Below the pieces are notes generated by a model. It ran no database searches. It had not been told where the DNA came from and saw only the letters and a program-made list of their open reading frames with translations. A stretch of 23,378 nt of DNA from a virus. The DNA lies in IMG/VR virus record IMGVR_UViG_3300046794_000149, positions 1 to 23,378 of that record; one strand, written 5' to 3'. Below, in pieces: positions 10,239 to 22,080 of this stretch (within the stretch, counting starts at the first letter, position 1; each line of letters begins with the position of its first letter). Position numbers and translations under genes: made by a program.

Positions 10239-10842
10239 ATTTTTTGACTATAACAATATTGCGCTCAAACTTTTTATTGAAGTAGCCGAGACAGCGGACT
10301 ACATGCAATTGATAATGTATGGGCGTGGCACTATTGACGAATGTTTTGAGCAGTGGGAAAAAATTATACAAGAGAATAGCAAAGTTAATGGCAGTGCTGA
10401 GTATAGGAGTTACTACGATAACCTGAACCACTACAATAAACTTTTAGCGGACTTCCTTGTGATAAGGGTTGACCTGACGGAATCTTTTTTTGTGATTGAT
10501 AACGTAATCATCGACCGCCTGGCGAGCAAGGGTTACAAAATTATGTTGACCTCCTTCTCTGATTATGTCAGAAGTCTAAACGCTGCGCTGAATAAATCCA
10601 ATAACATAGTCACCAAAATCGAAATGCGTTATAAGGCCATCGTGAAAGCAGGTGAGCAAAGCAAGGGCAGTAACAAGCAGGTAACATTTGAAGTCCTGAT
10701 GGCGAACTTGACAACGGCGTTAGGCTTCACCGTTGACGATTCATTAACACTATCACGGTATAATGAATACAATAAAATCATAAAGAGGAAAAATGTAGAG
10801 TCGCGGAATAATAAAGCGAAAAGTTATGGCAGCCGAGTTTGA
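10198..10842 (+). CDS. Helical protein before tape measure (possible assembly chaperone)
   Basis: The protein is dominated by helices, for example FFDYNNIALKLFIEVAETAD, IDECFEQWEKIIQENSK and YVRSLNAALNKSNNIVTKIE. Its position directly before the tape measure is where tail-assembly chaperones are normally encoded. The start is uncertain. GTG at 10198 keeps the coherent FFDYNN segment and gives 214 aa with a 41-base overlap. ATG at 10102 gives 246 aa with a 137-base overlap and a shadow-like N-terminus. ATG at 10303 would lose the first helix. I see no classic -1 slippery heptamer. The stop overlaps the tape measure by 17 bases. Confidence 0.55.
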   Translation: MSGNIIEASTPQTRFFDYNNIALKLFIEVAETADYMQLIMYGRGTIDECFEQWEKIIQENSKVNGSAEYRSYYDNLNHYNKLLADFLVIRVDLTESFFVIDNVIIDRLASKGYKIMLTSFSDYVRSLNAALNKSNNIVTKIEMRYKAIVKAGEQSKGSNKQVTFEVLMANLTTALGFTVDDSLTLSRYNEYNKIIKRKNVESRNNKAKSYGSRV

Positions 10843-13800
10843 GAGACAGGATTTTATAAGTGACGAGGCACTGCGCGCGCCGCTGGTGATGAAAAAGAAT
10901 TGGGAGGAATACCTTGTCACCATGCAGGAAGTCAGGAAAGCAGGGTTGGATTTTTCCAATGCTTTCAAAGGTGCTGGTTCCGCTGGCAGTGGTGGCATAT
11001 CTACAAAAAAATTAAAAGACGACACCGATAAACTCGCGCAGGCGCAGAAAGAACTTACCAAAGTTTCCAACGCCATGTCGATAGCCATCGCGCGCGACAA
11101 TGACGAGTATCGCAAGCAGGAACAGGCATTGGTGAAGTTGAAAGCTGAGATGAAGGAAAAAAATGCGCTTGGTGAGAAGGAGGCGGTCGCAGTTAATAAA
11201 CTTAATTCATCCTTAAAAGAAATTGAAGCCGCATTGAACGCGAACCGTGTGGCATACTCTAATCTCAGAAGTGAAGAGGAACGTAACAGTAAAACAGGTG
11301 TTACACTCCTGAAAACAATCCAATCTCAGAAGGAAGCTGCCAGCGAATTACGCGAAGAGATGGGACAGTTTAGCGGCAATGTCGGGAACTATACTGCGTC
11401 AATCCTGAAAGCGCATAAGGCAATACAAGACCAAGAAAAAGAGACTAAGGATTTGATGATTGCTCAAAAAGGTTTAGACAAGTCAACGGACGAAGGGAAA
11501 AAATCTTTTGATGACTTAAAAATCGCCATCCAAAATAACATTACCCAAATAAACGTATACCGTAAGGAAGCAGGGATGGCAGAAACCTCCACCGATGAAC
11601 TGAATAAGCAATTAGAAGAGGGCGAAAAGTCGACAGGTGGTTTAGGTGACGCACTTGGTAAAATTTCCCCGGGACTGAAAGCCGCTTATGATGGCGCTGT
11701 CAGTTTTGGGAAAGCGCTGTGGGCATTAGTCGCCAATCCTGTAGGACTTATTTTAGTAGCCATCGCCGCAGCCGTTGCCGGACTTGCGCGCTACTTCACT
11801 GCCACAAGCGAGGGGCAAGATAAATGGAATAAAGTCCTTGCAGTTGGTGAGGCCATCCTTGACACATTCCTTGACATACTTGAATCGGTAGGCAAAGCGC
11901 TGGTCGATATGTTCACCAAGCCCAAAGAGACATTTGAGGGCTTCATGAAATTAATACAACCGTTAACCGATAAACTTAGTGCGATGTGGGAAGACCCGTT
12001 GCAGGCATGCGAAGACTTTGTAAAGTTCCTCGCTACAAATTTATGGAATAGGTTGACGTCAATAATAGTACTGGCAAAAGCAGTCGGTCAGGCGTTTAGT
12101 GGCGAGTGGCAAGAGGCTGCAAGGACAGCGGCGAACGCTGCGATACAATTTGCCACAGGGGTTGAAAATGGTTATGACAAAATAGAGAAAGTGGTGGTCG
12201 ATACTTGGGAGTCGGCACTAAAAAAATTAATGGAGTACTATGGCGTTGCAGAAGACAAAGCCATAAAGCTCATGGCTATTCAGGAGCGCCAAAACAAATT
12301 TAACAAAGATGCCATTCAGGATATTATCGATGACAGTGTAACAGAGCTGGAAGTGTCAAAGGAAATGGCGAAGGTCAAAGATGACTTACGTTTTAGTGAA
12401 GAGGATAGACTTGAAGCGCTGAGAAAAGCAAACAAATTACTGGAAGAGCAAAGCAAGGGTGATGTCGCGCTGGCACAAACTGAGTTAGATATTTTAAAAG
12501 ACCGGTTAACGGTACTCAAAGATGGGCTGGCAGTTAGACAATTGACTGAAGATGAGCTGAAACAAATTGCCGACCTGACTGCAAAGGTCAATAACACTGA
12601 ACAGGAATTTCTGGATGGAAAGAAAAAAAGGAATGCCGAAGAGTTCGCCACCGTGCAAGCTATTCAGAAGAGAAGGCAGGACGCAATTAACGCCGAGCGT
12701 ATAGCGACAGAAAATTTAAACAAATGGAAGTTAGAAGATTCAATTGCCACCAATGAAAAGATTATTGCAAATGAATTTTCAAATCTAGGTGAATCGACTA
12801 AGGCCATAGCGGACATCAACGAGGCAAAGATTCAAATGACCATCAATGCTTCAAATAAAGAAATGGACGAGGCGCGTAAGGCTGCGCGCGAAAGAGTAAA
12901 CTTAAGTTCTGAAGTAAGGGACGAAATATTTAATAACACAGCCTTATCACTTGACCAGCAATTAGCATTACAGGAGGAACATATTAACAAAGCCATCGAC
13001 AATGATGTAGCCTACCAAACGGAAGCTGTAAAAATTACCGAGGATATGTTCGCCAAAATGGATGAGCTCACGGCAGCATCCACAGCACGTGCAAAAGAAA
13101 ATGTATTTGCAGTCCTCGCGCGCGATGCTCAAAACCTTGCCAATAAAGCTGGAACGCTGGTCAATACAGACTTATTAAATCTTGAAAAGCAATTTGCCGA
13201 TAACGAAATATCGTTACAGGCTTACAACGACAAGAAATTAGAAATACAACAAAAGGGTGAACAGGCTTCGCTTGACTCACAATTAAAATATTTAGAGAAG
13301 CAGTTAACTAATGCCCAAGAGGGTAGCGCCAAACAAATTGAACTGCAAAATCAAATCAGTGCGGTCAAACTTCAGATGCAAACAAATGAAAATGCACTGA
13401 AGATTGAAGGCGAGCAAAAAGTACAAGAGGGATTGCAGGAACTTTCGACCACCGGCGTAGACCTTGCGATGGAAACCATTAACAACTTCTTTGCCGCTGA
13501 AAATGAAGCAAGAGAAGCGCGCTTGGAAAAGATTCAAGAAAACATGGAAGAGGAATTGGCTGCGGCAGGTGATAACGAGACTGCAAAGGTAGCCATCAAA
13601 AACAAAGCCGCAGCCGAGGAACAAAAAGTAAGAATGCAACAGGCGGCAGCAATGCGTAAGCAAGCAATTTTTGAAAAGACCGTTGCCGTTATAAGCATTG
13701 CTATCAACACCGCCAAGGGTATCGGTCAAGCATTAGGCACATACCCGCCTCCCGCTTCCTTCGTGCTGGCAGCTATCACCGCTGTCTTAGGTGCTTTGCA

Positions 13801-14215
13801 AATTGCTGCGGTAGTCAGTAAGCCGATACCTTCCTATGCAGTAGGTACAAAAAATCACAAAGGAGGATTGGCGCAAGTTGGTGAAGAGGGCAGCGAACTT
13901 ATTACGCTACCGTCTGGCAAGTCATTCCTGTCACCAGATGAGTCAACCGTAATGGCTTTGCCTGCGCGCACTAAAGTTGACACGCATAAGGAAACAATGA
14001 ACCAGTTAGCGCTTGCATCATTACCGCATGAAGATAGAATGGGCAGTAGAATGGATGTGGAAATGTTAGGGGTGATAGGAAGCAAGCTGGACAGCTTAGA
14101 AAAAACTGTACGCAATAAAAAGGAACAGCATTGGAACATTAGCAAGCAGGGGATGCAGGCTATGGTCAAGAATGCAGAGACAAGACAATACTTCATGGAC
14201 CAACTTTATAGATAA
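10826..14215 (+). CDS. Tail tape measure protein
   Basis: This 1129-aa protein sets tail length and is threaded through the tail tube. It has long charged coiled-coil stretches (residues about 60-280 and 480-950), a hydrophobic segment at about 297-324 (WALVANPVGLILVAIAAAVA) typical of tape measures, a second hydrophobic zone near residues 960-1005, and the C-terminal pattern YAVGTKNHKGGLAQVGEEGS with ELITLPSGKSF, common in siphophage tape measures. No lysozyme or peptidase domain is visible. At about 0.15 nm per residue a tail near 170 nm would be expected; this is a rule-of-thumb estimate. The start overlaps the preceding gene by 17 bases and the stop shares one base with the next ATG. Confidence 0.9.
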   Translation: MAAEFERQDFISDEALRAPLVMKKNWEEYLVTMQEVRKAGLDFSNAFKGAGSAGSGGISTKKLKDDTDKLAQAQKELTKVSNAMSIAIARDNDEYRKQEQALVKLKAEMKEKNALGEKEAVAVNKLNSSLKEIEAALNANRVAYSNLRSEEERNSKTGVTLLKTIQSQKEAASELREEMGQFSGNVGNYTASILKAHKAIQDQEKETKDLMIAQKGLDKSTDEGKKSFDDLKIAIQNNITQINVYRKEAGMAETSTDELNKQLEEGEKSTGGLGDALGKISPGLKAAYDGAVSFGKALWALVANPVGLILVAIAAAVAGLARYFTATSEGQDKWNKVLAVGEAILDTFLDILESVGKALVDMFTKPKETFEGFMKLIQPLTDKLSAMWEDPLQACEDFVKFLATNLWNRLTSIIVLAKAVGQAFSGEWQEAARTAANAAIQFATGVENGYDKIEKVVVDTWESALKKLMEYYGVAEDKAIKLMAIQERQNKFNKDAIQDIIDDSVTELEVSKEMAKVKDDLRFSEEDRLEALRKANKLLEEQSKGDVALAQTELDILKDRLTVLKDGLAVRQLTEDELKQIADLTAKVNNTEQEFLDGKKKRNAEEFATVQAIQKRRQDAINAERIATENLNKWKLEDSIATNEKIIANEFSNLGESTKAIADINEAKIQMTINASNKEMDEARKAARERVNLSSEVRDEIFNNTALSLDQQLALQEEHINKAIDNDVAYQTEAVKITEDMFAKMDELTAASTARAKENVFAVLARDAQNLANKAGTLVNTDLLNLEKQFADNEISLQAYNDKKLEIQQKGEQASLDSQLKYLEKQLTNAQEGSAKQIELQNQISAVKLQMQTNENALKIEGEQKVQEGLQELSTTGVDLAMETINNFFAAENEAREARLEKIQENMEEELAAAGDNETAKVAIKNKAAAEEQKVRMQQAAAMRKQAIFEKTVAVISIAINTAKGIGQALGTYPPPASFVLAAITAVLGALQIAAVVSKPIPSYAVGTKNHKGGLAQVGEEGSELITLPSGKSFLSPDESTVMALPARTKVDTHKETMNQLALASLPHEDRMGSRMDVEMLGVIGSKLDSLEKTVRNKKEQHWNISKQGMQAMVKNAETRQYFMDQLYR

Positions 14216-16725
14216 TGGCATTACGTGTTCAACTCCTTAATGAATTTTTGGGACCGCTTACAATAGAGGAAGCTGACCCTATAGGAATTAATGAGGTTAC
14301 ACAGACAGTAAAGCGCAGCACTGACAATGAGGGGGTGATCTATGAAGTCATTTTTGATATTGATTTTATTAAACAGTCAAGGCAATACATAAAGGAGGCG
14401 TTTGAAAAACATGGCGGTATAGACGCGGAGGTCTTGGTAAATATGTATGAGTACGACCCCAACTTAAGGAAGTGGAAACTCTATGCCAATGGAAAAATAA
14501 ACTATAACAAATATGATCTGTATGAAGATAAAGTTACCGTCAACATTGAGCAGATTGGTTTCCAGAGACGGATTTTAAATTTACTGGACACAAATATAGA
14601 TATTGAAACTACCGTCAGCCAGAACGGTAGCGCTATCCCCCCTATCAATTCATTCCAAGTCCCTTACCACAGTAAAACAATTTACAAAAAGTCCTCCGGC
14701 GGTCCGCAGGATAGTAATGAGTCTCCACACCAAGAAGTTTTCCCATTTAATATTCCACCGGATGATGACCCACCGCCACCAAATCCCATAACAAATCCAA
14801 TTGAATACGAAGCATGGTTAGCGTTAGGTCACCCATTCTCTGTAGAAAAGGATGCAATAATGGTAGGCAGTATGGACACAAATAAAGCAACCTTCGAAGA
14901 GCTGACTGATTTTTTTAAAGTCGGTTTTTCATACCCACAGCTTGAACCAGGCATGGGCGCAGGTTCAAAAACAACCGCAGAATACATCACGCATCTAACC
15001 GCGCATAAAGAAGAGCGGTTTGAAATATACCGCGCCACGGAAGCAGGAAAATTGCGCGCTGCCATTGACATAAACATGAGGCACGCTATTGAAGTCTTGG
15101 GTTCTGGTGGTGACACTAATTATGAAGGCGCTTATGTCTGCGGTATTGAGCACAACAAAACGGCGAACACCGAAATAATTTATTGGTTTGAGATGCGCGA
15201 CAAAAATGACAACATTTTAATCCTTGAACCAATCACGCGCGCACCAACGATGCCCTGCGGAACTACGGACTTCCCTTACGTTCAGGCATCGTATACTAAG
15301 GAGGACGTAAATATTGAGGTGGGGTACAAAATTTATGTATACCACACGATTAGAGTATGGGGCACTTTCACAATGCCGATAGGGTTCAGCACCGAAATTT
15401 TAACGCACAATTTTTTTGTACAAGCATCACCTCGCGAGTGGGATGATAAATCAAAATTTGATGAAGGTGAGCGTGTTATCTATTCCGGAAAAGTATGGGC
15501 GAGTCTTGTCGGTGAAAATATTGGGCACGCTCCTGTTGCTGGTGAACATTGGGAATTTGAAAGCGATTGGGTTGGCGTCACAACACCTACTCAAATATTT
15601 TTTGAGAACGCCACGGTAGCACCATCGACAATAGTAAAAACATTTTTACTGCATGATGTTTACCTGCAATGCTGTAGGTATCTGACAAATGAAATTGATT
15701 GTTTCGCAAGTGATCTTTTGGGGCGAACTGAATTAGGCTACGCCGTTGATGGCGAGGGCGCTTTCATTGGCTGGACTAATGGCGGCAACCTGCGCGCAAT
15801 GGAAGACAAAAAAGTATTTACCAGCATTAAGGAATTAATAGATTTTACCGATGCTGTTTTCTGTGTTGGCTTCGGTTTTGAGATAGACTCTGGCAGAAAC
15901 CTTTTGCGCCTTGAAAAAAGGAATTTCTTTTACAATAAAAACACTCCTATACTATCGTTGGGCAAAGTATATGACATTAAGAAACGCCTTAATCAAAAGA
16001 TGTTTTACAATGAAATCGAATACGGCTATCAGGGCAAATTAGATATTGGGAAAGTCAACGCTGTGGATGAGTTCAACACCCTGCGCAAAGCGGCTATCCC
16101 AATTATAAACACCAAGAACAAATATAAGATCTCAGTTAAGACACGAACGAGCGGCTACCAAATTGAACACCAAAGGAGGTTGCAATTTTCTACCACCGAC
16201 AGCAAACTGGATGATGAAAATTTCGCCATCGTTTTAATCCGTGACTCATCAATCGGTTCTGGCTTCAGGACAAAGCAGGACGAAGGTTATGAATCAATTA
16301 TAAATGTCCTTGACCCTCACACTGGCTACAATTACGACATAGCACCCGCGAGGTGTTTAAAAAACTGGTATCCATTTATAGGAAGTATGTTAATCAGGAG
16401 CACAAATAAGAAAGTGAAATTTTCCTATGGTGAAGTGAATTATGTCATGGCTTCTAAAAAAATTGGTGAGACTGATTACCTGCATGAGGATGGGGAATTT
16501 GATTTGAGCGGTATCGAACCACTGTTTGAACCATTCATGTACGAGTTCAAAAAAGAATTGCGCCGGGACAGTTTCCAATTGATCAAAACAATCCCTTATG
16601 GTGTTATAAACTTTGAAGACCGTCAAGGAAATAAATTTGAGGCGTTCATTTCTGACAAAGGAGTTGAGCACGACTCATTTAAAAATATGGGTGACTTTGA
16701 ATTGTTACACGTTTATAGAAAATAA
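14215..16725 (+). CDS. Large tail-tip protein with CBM5/12-like insert
   Basis: This 836-aa protein directly follows the tape measure, where distal tail and tail-tip hub proteins lie. The N-terminus (MALRVQLLNEFLGPLTIEEA) leads into a strand-rich domain to about residue 130. A linker at 181-191 is Asp/Pro rich (PPDDDPPPPNP). Residues 406-450 (PREWDDKSKFDEGERVIYSG then KVWASL to HWEFES) form a carbohydrate-binding-like module of the same design as one in the connector. The rest, to the end, includes LGKVYDIKKRLNQKMFYNEI and RCLKNWYPFIGSML; I have no clear family for it. A receptor-contacting hub or baseplate role is inferred. The ATG shares its A with the tape measure stop (TAATG). Confidence 0.65.
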   Translation: MALRVQLLNEFLGPLTIEEADPIGINEVTQTVKRSTDNEGVIYEVIFDIDFIKQSRQYIKEAFEKHGGIDAEVLVNMYEYDPNLRKWKLYANGKINYNKYDLYEDKVTVNIEQIGFQRRILNLLDTNIDIETTVSQNGSAIPPINSFQVPYHSKTIYKKSSGGPQDSNESPHQEVFPFNIPPDDDPPPPNPITNPIEYEAWLALGHPFSVEKDAIMVGSMDTNKATFEELTDFFKVGFSYPQLEPGMGAGSKTTAEYITHLTAHKEERFEIYRATEAGKLRAAIDINMRHAIEVLGSGGDTNYEGAYVCGIEHNKTANTEIIYWFEMRDKNDNILILEPITRAPTMPCGTTDFPYVQASYTKEDVNIEVGYKIYVYHTIRVWGTFTMPIGFSTEILTHNFFVQASPREWDDKSKFDEGERVIYSGKVWASLVGENIGHAPVAGEHWEFESDWVGVTTPTQIFFENATVAPSTIVKTFLLHDVYLQCCRYLTNEIDCFASDLLGRTELGYAVDGEGAFIGWTNGGNLRAMEDKKVFTSIKELIDFTDAVFCVGFGFEIDSGRNLLRLEKRNFFYNKNTPILSLGKVYDIKKRLNQKMFYNEIEYGYQGKLDIGKVNAVDEFNTLRKAAIPIINTKNKYKISVKTRTSGYQIEHQRRLQFSTTDSKLDDENFAIVLIRDSSIGSGFRTKQDEGYESIINVLDPHTGYNYDIAPARCLKNWYPFIGSMLIRSTNKKVKFSYGEVNYVMASKKIGETDYLHEDGEFDLSGIEPLFEPFMYEFKKELRRDSFQLIKTIPYGVINFEDRQGNKFEAFISDKGVEHDSFKNMGDFELLHVYRK

Positions 16726-16730
16726 TTGTT

Positions 16731-18944
16731 ATGGCATGGACAATGGTAAATCCTACCTTCTGGACAAAGTTTGATGCAGGAACTTTTGAAGGTTCAGATA
16801 TTGGTGATGTATCTGCGGGTGTTGTAGATGGTCACGCGCAATATGGATTTTCTACAGCGCAGAAACATGATGGCACAAAAAGTTTTTTAGCTAATCTACT
16901 TGACAGTCCTTCATATAGTTTTTCGGGTAACTATGGTCATCGTTCACTGGTAAGGTTTAGACCTGGTGGTGCTTTCGTAGCTGGCAGAAGATACACGTTT
17001 AACGGTTGGGTTTATTGGGGTAATAGAGGACACACGGTAACGGACAAAAATGTTCAATTAAAAGTTAAGTATGCGACCACTGCATTCCCTGATGTATCTG
17101 CAATTCCAAACAGGGATGCAATAATTGATTCAGATACTTACGGCTTTTGGATACCATTTTCATATCAGTTCATTGCCCCATCAACGAGCACCGCGTCTAA
17201 TTCTTGGCTCGCTTTCGTGCTTGATTGGGACGTAAGAGAATATCCTTCCACCTCACCAATAGAAGACATACAAATATTTTTTGATGGCTTCACTGCAACA
17301 GAGGAAAGCAACACACCACCGCCACCAATTAATATAACTGGCATTGTAACAAATGTTACATCGCACGGCGCGAATAATGGGTCGATTGACGCAAGTGTTA
17401 CAGGTGGCGTAGGACCATTTACTTATTCATGGAACAACGGTGCGACTACCCAAGACATCTTTGCACTTGTTCCCGGAACGTATACGGTCATAGTTACTGA
17501 CACAGTAGGCGGCGCAGTTAAAAGTCAATCCTTCAACATTACCGAGCCATCGGTAATGGTTGCGTCCTATACGAAAACAGACGCGACCGCAGACGGTGAA
17601 AGTGATGGAACGATAACTTTGTCGGTGTCCGGTGGCTCTGGCAATAGGACTTTTTTGTGGAACGATGGACCTACTTCACAAAATAGAGCTGGCTTAATAG
17701 CTGGAATTTATACCGTGCTTATACACGATGTAAGCACAGCGGAAGAAATTTTCCTGACCATTGAAATTACTGAGCCTGCGCCAACGGTAGTGAACGGGAC
17801 TTTTTTGACTGTCCCCACTATGAACTCTATTCATTTTGTTGTGCGCGAAGATGTCAGCCAGTGCGATAACCCGCAGGGGTTGGATAATGTATTGCTTTGC
17901 GAGCAACAGCATGAGGGCTTTGATCAGGTAAATTACTTTCAGCCATTTAACATTTGTGACATAGTATCGACTCAGTTTAATTCTGATTTTTTAAATTTTG
18001 CAATTGAATTGCGAAAATATTCCACCAGTGAAGTAGTTAAAACATTTTCTTATGAATTGAAGGAACAAAATATTGGGGTCACAGAAGAGTTTGGCATTGC
18101 AATCCGCGCGCATACTGTCACGGGACAAAGCAGAGTTTATTTTAATTCCGGACCGTTACCAATACCGTTGAGCGTTGGTGATGTTTTTCAGATTATAAAT
18201 AATGTCAATGGCTACAATGGTAATTATGGTATCGTGGATATTATTAACGACCCAACTTTAGGCTATCAATATTTAGTCATAACAAAAAATTATACAGGTC
18301 CGGGCACATCACAAACTGCAACAGGAAAATTTGATACCTCCACAACAAATTTCAATGTGTTTGAAAGTGTGCATTCATTTAGTAATGTACCAGAGGGCGA
18401 ATATTATATAAGGCTACTAGCATTCGACACTATCGATGGAATCAATTTTAAAGAAGCGAGAAGCGAACCGCTGGACATACGCAATTCACACCCGGGTACA
18501 AATCAAATCAAATATAAAAACATCGACAATGCTTTCGATATAACATGGACCACTGGCTATCAGGGAATGATTAGAGTACCATCACATTTCGGGCATAGAC
18601 GAAGCCCGGGAGGTGAACGGTCAACAAACAGGAACAGCGACTACAGTATTGTTAAGGTGAGCGCAAAGAAAACCCGGGTGTTATTATTTCAGGTCTGGTC
18701 TTTACCGCCTTACATGCATGAAAAGTTAGGGACTTTATTGGATTGCGATAATTATACAATCAACAACATTGAATGTCAAACGACTGAAGGGTATGCAGAG
18801 CCAGAGTATAAGGACAGATCATTGCTTGCAAACTCTTCCGTGAAATTAGAAGCTAAATGGTACGACCGTTACAATAGTGATGACCTCGGAAGTGTTGCCG
18901 ATGGTGGATTTATAATGACCGAGACAGGATTCTTAAAACGTTAA
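16731..18944 (+). CDS. Tail adhesin with jelly-roll-like domain and two SprB-like repeats
   Basis: This 737-aa protein has several parts. Residues 10-190 look like a beta-sandwich carbohydrate-binding domain (for example RRYTFNGWVYWGNRG). A TPPPP linker follows at 195-199. Two SprB-like repeats span 201-273 and 276-349; the first has NGSIDASVTGGVGPFTYSWN, NGATTQDI and PGTYTVIVTD, and the second has DGTITLSVSGGSGNRTFLWN. The remaining 390 residues are unique, strand-rich and end with a region of dense aromatic and charged residues. SprB repeats are known from the gliding-motility adhesin of Flavobacterium. Here they probably extend a receptor-binding part of the tail. Function is inferred; the repeats are clear. 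Confidence 0.75.
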   Translation: MAWTMVNPTFWTKFDAGTFEGSDIGDVSAGVVDGHAQYGFSTAQKHDGTKSFLANLLDSPSYSFSGNYGHRSLVRFRPGGAFVAGRRYTFNGWVYWGNRGHTVTDKNVQLKVKYATTAFPDVSAIPNRDAIIDSDTYGFWIPFSYQFIAPSTSTASNSWLAFVLDWDVREYPSTSPIEDIQIFFDGFTATEESNTPPPPINITGIVTNVTSHGANNGSIDASVTGGVGPFTYSWNNGATTQDIFALVPGTYTVIVTDTVGGAVKSQSFNITEPSVMVASYTKTDATADGESDGTITLSVSGGSGNRTFLWNDGPTSQNRAGLIAGIYTVLIHDVSTAEEIFLTIEITEPAPTVVNGTFLTVPTMNSIHFVVREDVSQCDNPQGLDNVLLCEQQHEGFDQVNYFQPFNICDIVSTQFNSDFLNFAIELRKYSTSEVVKTFSYELKEQNIGVTEEFGIAIRAHTVTGQSRVYFNSGPLPIPLSVGDVFQIINNVNGYNGNYGIVDIINDPTLGYQYLVITKNYTGPGTSQTATGKFDTSTTNFNVFESVHSFSNVPEGEYYIRLLAFDTIDGINFKEARSEPLDIRNSHPGTNQIKYKNIDNAFDITWTTGYQGMIRVPSHFGHRRSPGGERSTNRNSDYSIVKVSAKKTRVLLFQVWSLPPYMHEKLGTLLDCDNYTINNIECQTTEGYAEPEYKDRSLLANSSVKLEAKWYDRYNSDDLGSVADGGFIMTETGFLKR
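17331..17549 (+). repeat. SprB-like repeat 1 (in the tail adhesin)
   Basis: Residues 201-273 of the tail adhesin: GSIDASVTGG, PFTYSWNNGATTQDI and PGTYTVIVTD are the typical SprB repeat anchors (Gly-Ser/Thr-Ile, Tyr-Ser-Trp-x-Asn-Gly, Gly-Thr-Tyr-Thr-Val). It ends FNITEPS, matching the end of the second copy. Confidence 0.75.
17556..17777 (+). repeat. SprB-like repeat 2 (in the tail adhesin)
   Basis: Residues 276-349 of the tail adhesin: DGTITLSVSGG, TFLWNDGPTSQNRA and AGIYTVLIHD align with the first copy (the central Tyr-Ser-Trp has become Phe-Leu-Trp), and it ends IEITEPA. Only two copies are seen, whereas bacterial adhesins often have many. Confidence 0.7.
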
Positions 18945-18951
18945 AAATATT

Positions 18952-21900
18952 ATGGCAGAAGAGTTAAGTAATGCTCGAATTGATCAATTGCCATTGTGCG
19001 CAGAATTGAAACCAGGCTATTGGGGCGCAGTGAGGAACATGGACAACCATATTACTGAGCGGTTTGATTTTGCCGCTTTGCTAACGTCAACGACTTCAGG
19101 TAATTTTGAATGGATAACAGACCATGCCTACAGTGATGGTGAGGTCGTTACGTGGCATGGTGAATGGTATCAAGCCAACGGCGATATCGCTGAAAATGTT
19201 GTCCCGGGTACAGACCCCGCATGGGAAGTCATAAGTAAATCACCTTCTGGTTTTACGTTTTGGCAAGCAGGAGTTTATACTCAGGATGATGTATTTGTAT
19301 TGTACAAAATGTCAACGGACCCAGACGCGCCAGACATACAAATTTTCTGGTTAGCGAATCCATTAAGACCATTTCCATCTTCAAATTTTTTAACTGAGTT
19401 GGAAGCAGGTGATTGGATAATGATTTCAGGTGGTGGTGATGGTGGCGGTGGCTCTGGAATAATAGAACGCGCTTGGAAATTTATTGCCAACACTACCGCG
19501 AGCGACCCGGGCAATGGTTCATTCAGAATGAATAATAGCGATGCAAATTTAGTAACCGAATTATATTTTTCTGAAACCGCTGCCGCGAGCTTTGATGCCG
19601 CTGCGTTGTTTGGAGTGTTGGAAGTAGGTTATAGAATAATAGCTCAACAAAGAAATGATGCATCAAGGCTTTTAGTTTTTGAAATTGCTTCCGCACCTAT
19701 TGACAATGGAGCTTGGTGGACTGTCCCGGTTAATGTTGTAGATGTTCGCGGTTTATTATTTGTGGCTAGTGCGGAAGTCGTTTTTCTATTTGACTTAAGT
19801 AAACCAGCGCCAGCGATACCAGACGCCAGCGAAACCGTAAAAGGTCTTATTGAAATTGCTACGCAGGCAGAAGTTAACGCGGGTATAGATGACCTTAGGG
19901 CAATTACTCCTTTTAAATTAGCTAATCGACCATCTACTGGCTGGTCATTGGCATCTGGTGGAACATTAACAGGAGTAAACACAATTACTTCTAATGCACC
20001 GAATCAATTAAATTTTGGTGGCACTTGGACAGCGACAGCAGACAATCAATTCCATGAACAATTTAATCCGACAATATCCGCCCGGATTGCTGGTGGTGAT
20101 ACAGTTATTAGCAAACTTTATAACCCTACATTAATAGCTACAGCGAGCAGCCAAAATTTAATTGCAGTAGATATTAATCCAACGTTTCCAGTAGCAGGTG
20201 CTTCAAATATTGGTTTAAGAATGCGATCAGGTTCAATGCTTTTAGGGGCAACCACATCACTTGTTAGCGGTGGTGTCTTTAGGTTGGAAATAAAAGGGTT
20301 TGGAAATTCTACATTAGGTGCTGCTTTAGCAGTATATAATAGTGATAATGCGAGAATGCTACGCACTGTAGATAATGGTGTAATACTTATCGGTGGTGCT
20401 AACCTTGGTGGTCTTGCCCCTTCTATATCGGTACAAGATAATACAGCACAAAATGTTTTAGGTAATGGATTACATTTTAATACCCATTATACAAATTCAG
20501 CTACAAATAGAGTTGGATATTATTTTACTACAGATGGTGCCATTACAGAAAACGCAACCACAACGACTTATTTGACCATTGCAGATGTTTCATTCAATCC
20601 AACGGCTGGCACAAATAGTTTACAAATGTGGAGATTGCGTCCATCAATAAATCAAACAGGTACAGCAACAGGTTATATTGCAGGCTATGTTTATGACCCC
20701 GCCATCACTGCAATAATTGGTAAAAATTATTCTTTCATATCCTCATCTGGTGACGCTGGTTTTGGAACGATGACGCCTACTGCCAAAATTCATGCGAAGG
20801 GAAATGGAACAACGACAGGTGAATTATTCAGACTCGATGACAGTGCTAATGTAAATAGAATATTTGTTTATGACGGTGGTTCTTATTATGGAACGATTAC
20901 AAACGGCAACGACTATGCGCGAACTGCCGGAGGAATAAACTTAAGTCAAAATGGTAGTAACACTTCAATACATTTTACTGTTAATGGCAATGTTTCACAA
21001 TTAAGAGTGGCAGATGGCGGAGGAAATTTAAAGGGTCGCCTTATTTACAATGGCTATGTCGGTCTGGAATCACTTGATAACACAATGCCTATCAAAGTAG
21101 CCATGCCTATTGTCAACGCAGCGTCAGGCGCTTTCGTAGTATTGAATGTAAAGGATAATGGAACAGCCTTCAATCCGTCATCAGGTACGGCGTCATTCAC
21201 TTCTCTTTTAATTAACCCACTTTATAATGTTACTGGTACATACATCGGTAGAATTACTGGCATTGATTACAACCCAGCATTGACTTCTATGATTGGCGTT
21301 ACTCACTATGGCGCGTTAATAAGAAGTGGATTAGTTGGAATGGGTCTTGGCGCAACATTACCGACCGCAGCATTACACGTTAAAAGTCCGGGCAACACAT
21401 CTTCTACCTACTGTGCAAAATTTGATAATTCAGATGGGGTAATGTTGTTAGGTGTCAACGATGGCAAGTACATAGAAATAGGTGGTGATACTTTTGTAAT
21501 TAGTGTCGGTAGTACAATTCCATCTGGGGCTGCCTACATGGAAATTAACTCAAATCAAGTTTTGGCTTACTTCATGACTGATAAAGTGGGGAATGTAATT
21601 GAGGAAATTACAACTACTACCGGGGCAATATCAAGAAAGTTAAAAACTGAACTTGTGGTCGACCAATTAGCTGGTGATTGTCCAATGACATATATACAAA
21701 GACAGTCAACAGTGGCGGCTGCATCCACGACAACAACAGTGGCGGCTGTGAACATGGCAGTCAGTGAACAAATAATGGACGTTCGTGTACAATTTATAAT
21801 CACAGAACTTGGTGGTGATGGTGGCGGCTGTAATATAAATGCAACCATCCGCAGAAGTTCTGCCGGGACTGTTGCGTTAGTTGGTGCGCAAGATAAAGGC

Positions 21901-22080
21901 GCAGGTGAGCGCAGGATTGCTGCAAGTGGTGCGCCTGATTGGACTTGTAATTTAGTCGCGGATGATACTAACAAACGACTAAATATAAATTTCACAAATA
22001 ATTCTGCAACCCCTGTCCCTAAAGCCTTTAAAGTCACTGCACACATTTGGTATACGAAAACTATTGAACCATCAGTATAA
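18952..22080 (+). CDS. Large tail fibre with CBM-like modules and TPTA repeats
   Basis: This 1042-aa protein is a probable receptor-binding fibre. Residues 52-95 and 102-159 are two Trp-rich CBM5/12-like modules (the first has VVTWHGEWYQANGD and AWEVIS). A Gly-rich linker at 160-169 follows. Residues 292-324 (ASETVKGLIEIATQAEVNAG then RAITPFKLA) match the phage tail-fibre pattern TVKG(I/L)(V/I)E(L/I)AT..E...G...R.(V/I)TP..L. Three diverged blocks follow near 361-483, 539-650 and 746-845; the last two share NPA(I/L)T...IG, a Gly-rich turn, and TPTA-(K/A)-(I/L)-H. No S74-peptidase chaperone signature is seen at the C-terminus. The ATG follows the adhesin stop by seven bases; the stop shares one base with the next ATG. 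Confidence 0.8.
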   Translation: MAEELSNARIDQLPLCAELKPGYWGAVRNMDNHITERFDFAALLTSTTSGNFEWITDHAYSDGEVVTWHGEWYQANGDIAENVVPGTDPAWEVISKSPSGFTFWQAGVYTQDDVFVLYKMSTDPDAPDIQIFWLANPLRPFPSSNFLTELEAGDWIMISGGGDGGGGSGIIERAWKFIANTTASDPGNGSFRMNNSDANLVTELYFSETAAASFDAAALFGVLEVGYRIIAQQRNDASRLLVFEIASAPIDNGAWWTVPVNVVDVRGLLFVASAEVVFLFDLSKPAPAIPDASETVKGLIEIATQAEVNAGIDDLRAITPFKLANRPSTGWSLASGGTLTGVNTITSNAPNQLNFGGTWTATADNQFHEQFNPTISARIAGGDTVISKLYNPTLIATASSQNLIAVDINPTFPVAGASNIGLRMRSGSMLLGATTSLVSGGVFRLEIKGFGNSTLGAALAVYNSDNARMLRTVDNGVILIGGANLGGLAPSISVQDNTAQNVLGNGLHFNTHYTNSATNRVGYYFTTDGAITENATTTTYLTIADVSFNPTAGTNSLQMWRLRPSINQTGTATGYIAGYVYDPAITAIIGKNYSFISSSGDAGFGTMTPTAKIHAKGNGTTTGELFRLDDSANVNRIFVYDGGSYYGTITNGNDYARTAGGINLSQNGSNTSIHFTVNGNVSQLRVADGGGNLKGRLIYNGYVGLESLDNTMPIKVAMPIVNAASGAFVVLNVKDNGTAFNPSSGTASFTSLLINPLYNVTGTYIGRITGIDYNPALTSMIGVTHYGALIRSGLVGMGLGATLPTAALHVKSPGNTSSTYCAKFDNSDGVMLLGVNDGKYIEIGGDTFVISVGSTIPSGAAYMEINSNQVLAYFMTDKVGNVIEEITTTTGAISRKLKTELVVDQLAGDCPMTYIQRQSTVAAASTTTTVAAVNMAVSEQIMDVRVQFIITELGGDGGGCNINATIRRSSAGTVALVGAQDKGAGERRIAASGAPDWTCNLVADDTNKRLNINFTNNSATPVPKAFKVTAHIWYTKTIEPSV
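20566..21486 (+). repeat. Diverged duplicated blocks in the tail fibre
   Basis: Within the fibre, block 20566-20901 (residues 539-650) and block 21187-21486 (residues 746-845) align through FNPTAG/INPLYN, the TG...GY or TG...GI turn, DPAITAIIG/NPALTSMIG, SSGDAGFGTMTPTAKIHAKG and RSGLVGMGLGATLPTAALHV. A more distant third copy at 20032-20400 has the NPT..A..S..I..DINPTF portion but not the TPTA element. They look like old duplications rather than recent ones. Confidence 0.6.

Follow-up and report, generated by a model that had tools for sequence, protein, structure and literature searches.

Two SprB-type Ig-like repeats precede a conserved core in a tail protein of a probable Bacteroidota siphophage

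Ig-like domains are known to be widespread on phages (Fraser et al. 2006, cited in PMC13370021), and an adhesive role was proposed for the BACON repeats in the tails of crAss-like phages (PMC6949934). Some flavobacterial phages use gliding and T9SS surface proteins of their hosts for adsorption (PMC7345892, PMC13288928). The SprB repeat (PF13573), named after a gliding adhesin, occurs in other T9SS substrates too (PMC7073777).

The DNA analysed here, referred to as the window, is a virus record of 23,378 bases with a tailed-phage late module of typical layout: ParB-like and Mom-like genes, large terminase, portal, prohead protease, capsid, tape measure, an 836-aa protein, a 737-aa protein and a 1042-aa fibre. 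The Mom-like DNA modification gene (955-1635; PF25680, E 8.7e-48) lies beside the ParB-like gene (359-976). The four genes at the distal end of the module are all encoded on the plus strand. The tape-measure-like protein (10826..14215, 1129 aa) matches several PHROGs tape-measure families with E down to 2.6e-8, and the 836-aa virion structural protein (14215..16725; phrog_15220, E 6.6e-83), a constant upstream partner of the gene studied here, has homologues in Tenacibaculum phage JQ and Leeuwenhoekiella phage Arctus_1 as well as in Pan5_15. The gene of the SprB-repeat protein itself (16731..18944, 737 aa) is an open frame with a whole-protein Pfam SprB E of 6.4e-18, and homologues of its product with 100, 92 and 86% identity are present in three sister phages (L003, L004 and L005, respectively). 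It is followed by the tail fibre gene (18952..22080, 1042 aa; phrog_910 tail collar fibre, E 2.6e-11). The frame is thus flanked by the tape-measure/836-aa pair on one side and the fibre on the other, which bears out the original prediction that the repeats lie within a phage tail protein. The host is probably a member of the Bacteroidota, since the nearest terminase to that of the window belongs to Cellulophaga phage Nekkels and the only matches to the 836-aa tail gene at E 1e-3 are in phages of Tenacibaculum and Leeuwenhoekiella.

Two matches to the Pfam SprB profile (PF13573.12) were found, at 17337-17447 (47.0 bits, E 6.3e-14) and 17571-17675 (34.1 bits, E 6.7e-10), both above the curated cut-off of 28 bits, while the same profile had no match in 14 control genomes. 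A full-length repeat HMM of 73 positions, trained on host repeats only (287 sequences), delimited repeat 1 at 17346..17549 (plus strand, aa 206-273, E 1.2e-22) and repeat 2 at 17571..17777 (plus strand, aa 281-349, E 1.0e-16) and gave no hit in reversed and shuffled decoys. Together they span 17346-17777, the interval for which two SprB repeats had been predicted (17331-17777), and the profile search and the HMM agree on them. All three sister phages have exactly two repeats. Pairwise dN/dS ratios were 0.02-0.07 for the repeats, 0.04-0.06 for the C-terminal core and 0.10-0.14 for the N-terminus, all of them rough values because synonymous sites are close to saturation for some pairs; they point to strong purifying selection on the repeats, as on the core. 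The modest confidence of the structure model in the repeat region (pLDDT mostly 30-70) might be taken to mean that the resemblance arose by chance or from low complexity, but two matches over curated cut-offs, clean decoys, retention in three sisters and low dN/dS make the probability of this practically nil, and we regard it as refuted by the profile scores, the decoys and the conservation among sisters.

The part of the protein that follows the repeats (aa 354-736, about 385 aa; 17790..18938, plus strand), delimited by BLASTP, hhalign and a core HMM, had been described as a large unique C-terminus. It is instead the most widely shared part, a core common to structural proteins of flavobacterial siphophages. 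By BLASTP it matches Pan5_16 (E 3e-11), a 311-aa Pseudanabaena phage protein that consists of the core alone, and the core HMM finds both Pan5_16 (E 8e-18) and the SprB-free protein Danklef2_18 (E 8e-40). Further relatives were reached via the neighbouring gene, in JQ and Arctus_1 and then in Cellulophaga phages phi19:1 and Nekkels, Polaribacter phages P12002L/S and Danklef_2. In JQ and Arctus_1 the gene after the one of the 836-aa type belongs to phrog_26672, and hhalign of the window family against a phrog_26672-type set gave a probability of 99.0 (E 7.2e-18) over 458 columns, which start at repeat 1 and end near the C-terminus. A direct PHROGs scan of the window core was without a hit, and the protein is for this reason placed as a remote member; with that qualification, the alignments indicate that the core is homologous to the phrog_26672 virion structural proteins of flavobacterial siphophages. 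For one homologue, phi19:1 gp98, as for the adjacent gp97, the annotation as a structural protein comes from MS/MS. The order of tape measure, a protein of about 700-836 aa, the SprB/core protein and fibre or structural genes is conserved in the window, its sisters and the flavobacterial phages, with one additional 180-aa gene ahead of the core gene in Danklef_2.

With the host-trained HMM, a repeat is detected immediately ahead of the core in JQ (2.5e-5), Arctus_1 (6.7e-6), phi19:1 gp98 (5.6e-9), Nekkels_1 (9.5e-8) and P12002L/S (4.5e-7), and an SprB-like domain has the same place in three further IMG/VR contigs (L111, L113 and L114); in the cases tested, Pfam's short model detected none of these. 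Such a domain thus precedes the core in all flavobacterial relatives examined but Danklef_2; the HMM finds no repeat in Danklef2_18 (393 aa) or in Pan5_16. Since these two proteins have the core without a repeat, the repeats are a dispensable add-on. Whereas the relatives' repeats are below Pfam detection, those of the window phage have the scores of canonical SprB, and the latter may therefore have been replaced by host-type ones and not inherited.

A second group of tail-region proteins with SprB repeats was found by an SprB motif pattern search of viral contigs and follow-up. It comprises proteins of 645-733 aa, and 12 distinct ones carry two or three SprB repeats directly before a different core of about 385 aa; seven viral proteins (L070-L076) and a prophage gene (L047) have this core without repeats, though these numbers, like those for the first core, are not frequencies, the searches having been seeded by repeats or repeat-bearing proteins. 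The two tail cores show no significant similarity in hhalign (prob 0.2%). A prophage protein of this family from a bacterial genome (L039) begins with a CBM_4_9-like domain (E 2.5e-5, slightly below the cut-off), after which come two repeats and then the core. The fold model of the second family has a pLDDT of 76, and its best phage match in the PDB is to the Ig domains of RB49 Hoc (3shs). Among the Foldseek matches of this model, the P12002S protein of 679 aa, the length of the second-family protein of that phage, ranked 31st (E 2.9e-13, with a TM score of only 0.24). The model also matches a BACON-domain protein of Polaribacter phage Leef_1 (BFVD A0A8E4ZDC4, E 1.3e-14), a hint that related tail proteins may be decorated with Ig-like modules of different kinds.

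Other proteins carry the repeat in different settings. A 1337-aa phage protein (L028, 7009-11019) with two SprB repeats and long threonine/proline-rich stretches matches phrog_26672 partially (E 1.1e-5). The phage proteins L078-L100, of 409-2121 aa, have SprB-like repeats in arrays of as many as seven, and the tail core of neither family was detected in them. Six SprB-like repeats are found at the C-terminal end of each of two 1452-aa proteins (L025, 511-4866, and L027) and of a truncated one of 1316 aa (L020), on contigs of 353,143, 41,033 and 362,532 bases, respectively.

The first 200 residues of the window protein (16731..17330, plus strand), which end in a proline-rich linker (TPPPPI), are predicted to contain beta strands, with low confidence. 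The original prediction called this domain jelly-roll-like, a description that gains no backing here: Pfam yields nothing for it even with the threshold relaxed to E 10, and the structure model of the 737-aa protein is poor (pLDDT 45.7, the repeats mostly 30-70), showing strand patterns in the repeats only at low confidence. Because of the poor model, the folds of the core and the N-terminus are not established; the N-terminal domain is possibly of a beta-sandwich or carbohydrate-binding type. A common origin of this domain and the CBM-like N-terminus of the prophage protein L039 was considered and rejected, as their sequence comparison was no better than shuffles.

Taken together, the protein is probably a distal-tail component of a flavobacterial-type siphophage, with a core that serves assembly, two Ig-like repeats that act mainly as spacers and an N-terminal domain on display. 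The gene product would be a central distal-tail protein of the baseplate or tail hub, a tail-tip location suggested by the gene order and the MS/MS annotation of the phi19:1 homologue. The C-terminal 385 or so residues would be the assembly core, holding the protein in place in the distal tail, and the two tandem SprB-type beta-sandwich modules, directly N-terminal to it, would work mainly as rigid spacers that hold the N-terminal domain of about 200 aa off the tail, where it may have a binding role. The conserved gene order, the homology of the core, the existence of SprB-free cores, the second family of like layout and the low dN/dS all support this assignment. The repeats had been proposed as a host-derived adhesive spacer, and the spacer part of that proposal fits, in contrast to recent derivation from a host, for which the best host repeat (about 56% identical) gives no support.

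The main rival to the spacer assignment, which we rate as rather unlikely, is weak and reversible adhesion by the repeats, of the kind proposed for Hoc Ig domains and phage BACON domains: the virion would linger on surface glycans or extracellular polysaccharide of Bacteroidota until the fibre binds its receptor. The closest phage sequences outside the family are the Ig domains of Hoc-like decoration and neck-whisker proteins (phrog_2973, E 1.3e-11), phage-displayed proteins with Ig-like domains conferred binding to epithelium (PMC13370021), and the repeats of the prophage protein L039 follow a CBM_4_9-like domain. On the other hand, a spacer would equally show strong conservation and a fixed copy number, the repeats are not known to bind any ligand, and two homologues with the same core do without them. 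As for the determinant of host range, the adjacent tail fibre is the better candidate than the SprB protein, because it varies between the sisters (about 57-58% identity both between the window and L004 and between L004 and L005, with rearranged C-terminal parts), while the SprB protein is well conserved (86-92%).

It had also been proposed that the repeats were taken from a host and might bring the phage onto the surfaces that a gliding adhesin contacts, or into competition with that adhesin. Searches for PF13573 returned 68 matches in one Flavobacterium MAG and at least 150 in one Saprospiraceae MAG, and by this distribution the 'SprB repeat' is a generic Ig-like module of Bacteroidota. Among 395 sampled Bacteroidota genomes there was no near-identical host repeat (at best 44% identity along 147 aa, or 54% along 81 aa), and the best host matches across most of the two-repeat region were 44-50% identical. 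Compared repeat by repeat, repeat 1 is nearer to a host repeat (56% over 71 aa) than to the best unrelated phage repeat (47%), a comparison biased by the choice of host loci, which were those that matched the window best. With the nearest host repeats only about 56% identical, recent transfer is not visible. A FastTree tree of 378 repeats and 72 columns interleaves phage and host repeats and leaves most forks unresolved, the columns being too few, and a window-family profile search of genome contigs for prophage relatives returned only host SprB proteins from two MAGs. At 45%, the GC content of the repeat stretch differs little from that of the whole gene (42%). Given the identities, the GC content and the low dN/dS of the repeats, recent host transfer was rejected within the genomes sampled; the data are compatible with an old origin of the repeats by acquisition or replacement from hosts. 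The repeats look like old, conserved modules, long resident in the phage lineage, and not like a recently taken gliding adhesin.

True SprB-type adhesins possess a T9SS sorting domain. No NCBIfam match to such a C-terminal domain (TIGR04131/TIGR04183) was found in the window protein at E 1, although the same search detects TIGR04131 in an SprB-repeat protein of LR756502. Moreover, the gene sits in a viral record with terminase, portal, protease, capsid and tape measure, not in a chromosome with gliding and T9SS genes, and its product has two repeats in 737 aa, not a long array in a very large protein as in SprB-type gliding adhesins. A specific tie to gliding is not supported, the repeat being present in many proteins of one genome and the sorting domain lacking here. 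The closeness of repeat 1 to host repeats and the use of gliding and T9SS surface proteins by some flavobacterial phages speak for the proposed role beside the gliding adhesin, but the repeats are generic, with dozens per genome, and the same architecture is found in phages of several genera, so that this role is improbable; it is possible in principle, and nothing in the sequence points there specifically. Less probable still is that the tail repeats contact the moving SprB filaments of the host, or other T9SS ones on its surface, repeat-to-repeat and that the gliding machinery carries the virion along the cell to the injection site.

The LR756502 protein mentioned above (L010, 2632-7644 of LR756502.1, a 642-kb 'uncultured phage') has 1670 aa, 14 SprB matches and TIGR04131 (E 2.4e-13; T9SS type B sorting), and its gene adjoins SpoVR and a glutamate-synthase-like gene. 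Either this is a huge phage whose genome includes a secreted adhesin, or the record contains bacterial DNA.

The novelty of the present case is modest, since Ig-like domains on phages are established and UniProt already names an 'SprB repeat' phage protein. It shows that, in phages attributed to Bacteroidota, the central tail proteins of two families are built with the Ig-like module of host adhesins, and that the module can be missing from the same core; phi19:1 gp98 offers a tractable system for the choice between spacer and adhesin. The repeats belong to the Ig-like repertoire of Bacteroidota surface proteins. The closest known proteins, those of phrog_26672 (phi19:1 gp98, Nekkels_1, P12002L/S, JQ and Arctus_1), share with the window protein a gene position after a phrog_15220-type gene, a homologous core and an SprB-like domain directly N-terminal to it, whereas their SprB-like domain has diverged beyond the reach of Pfam, their N-terminal domain is unrelated or unalignable, and sequence identity is just about 15-20%. 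The SprB gliding adhesin of Flavobacterium johnsoniae has the same repeat family (PF13573), but in a very large array with a T9SS C-terminal domain, unlike the two repeats in a tail module seen here. The Hoc-like Ig domains of T4-like phages (RB49 Hoc) share the GGxGPYTYxW-type motif and are Ig-like beta-sandwiches, as the window repeats probably are, yet they decorate the capsid or neck, whereas the window repeats are fused to a tail core. A parallel in kind is that of the tandem BACON repeats of crAss-like phages, also an Ig-like module of Bacteroidota surface proteins in tail-region proteins, which belong to another domain family and form longer arrays, while the SprB repeats of the window phage are fixed at two copies.
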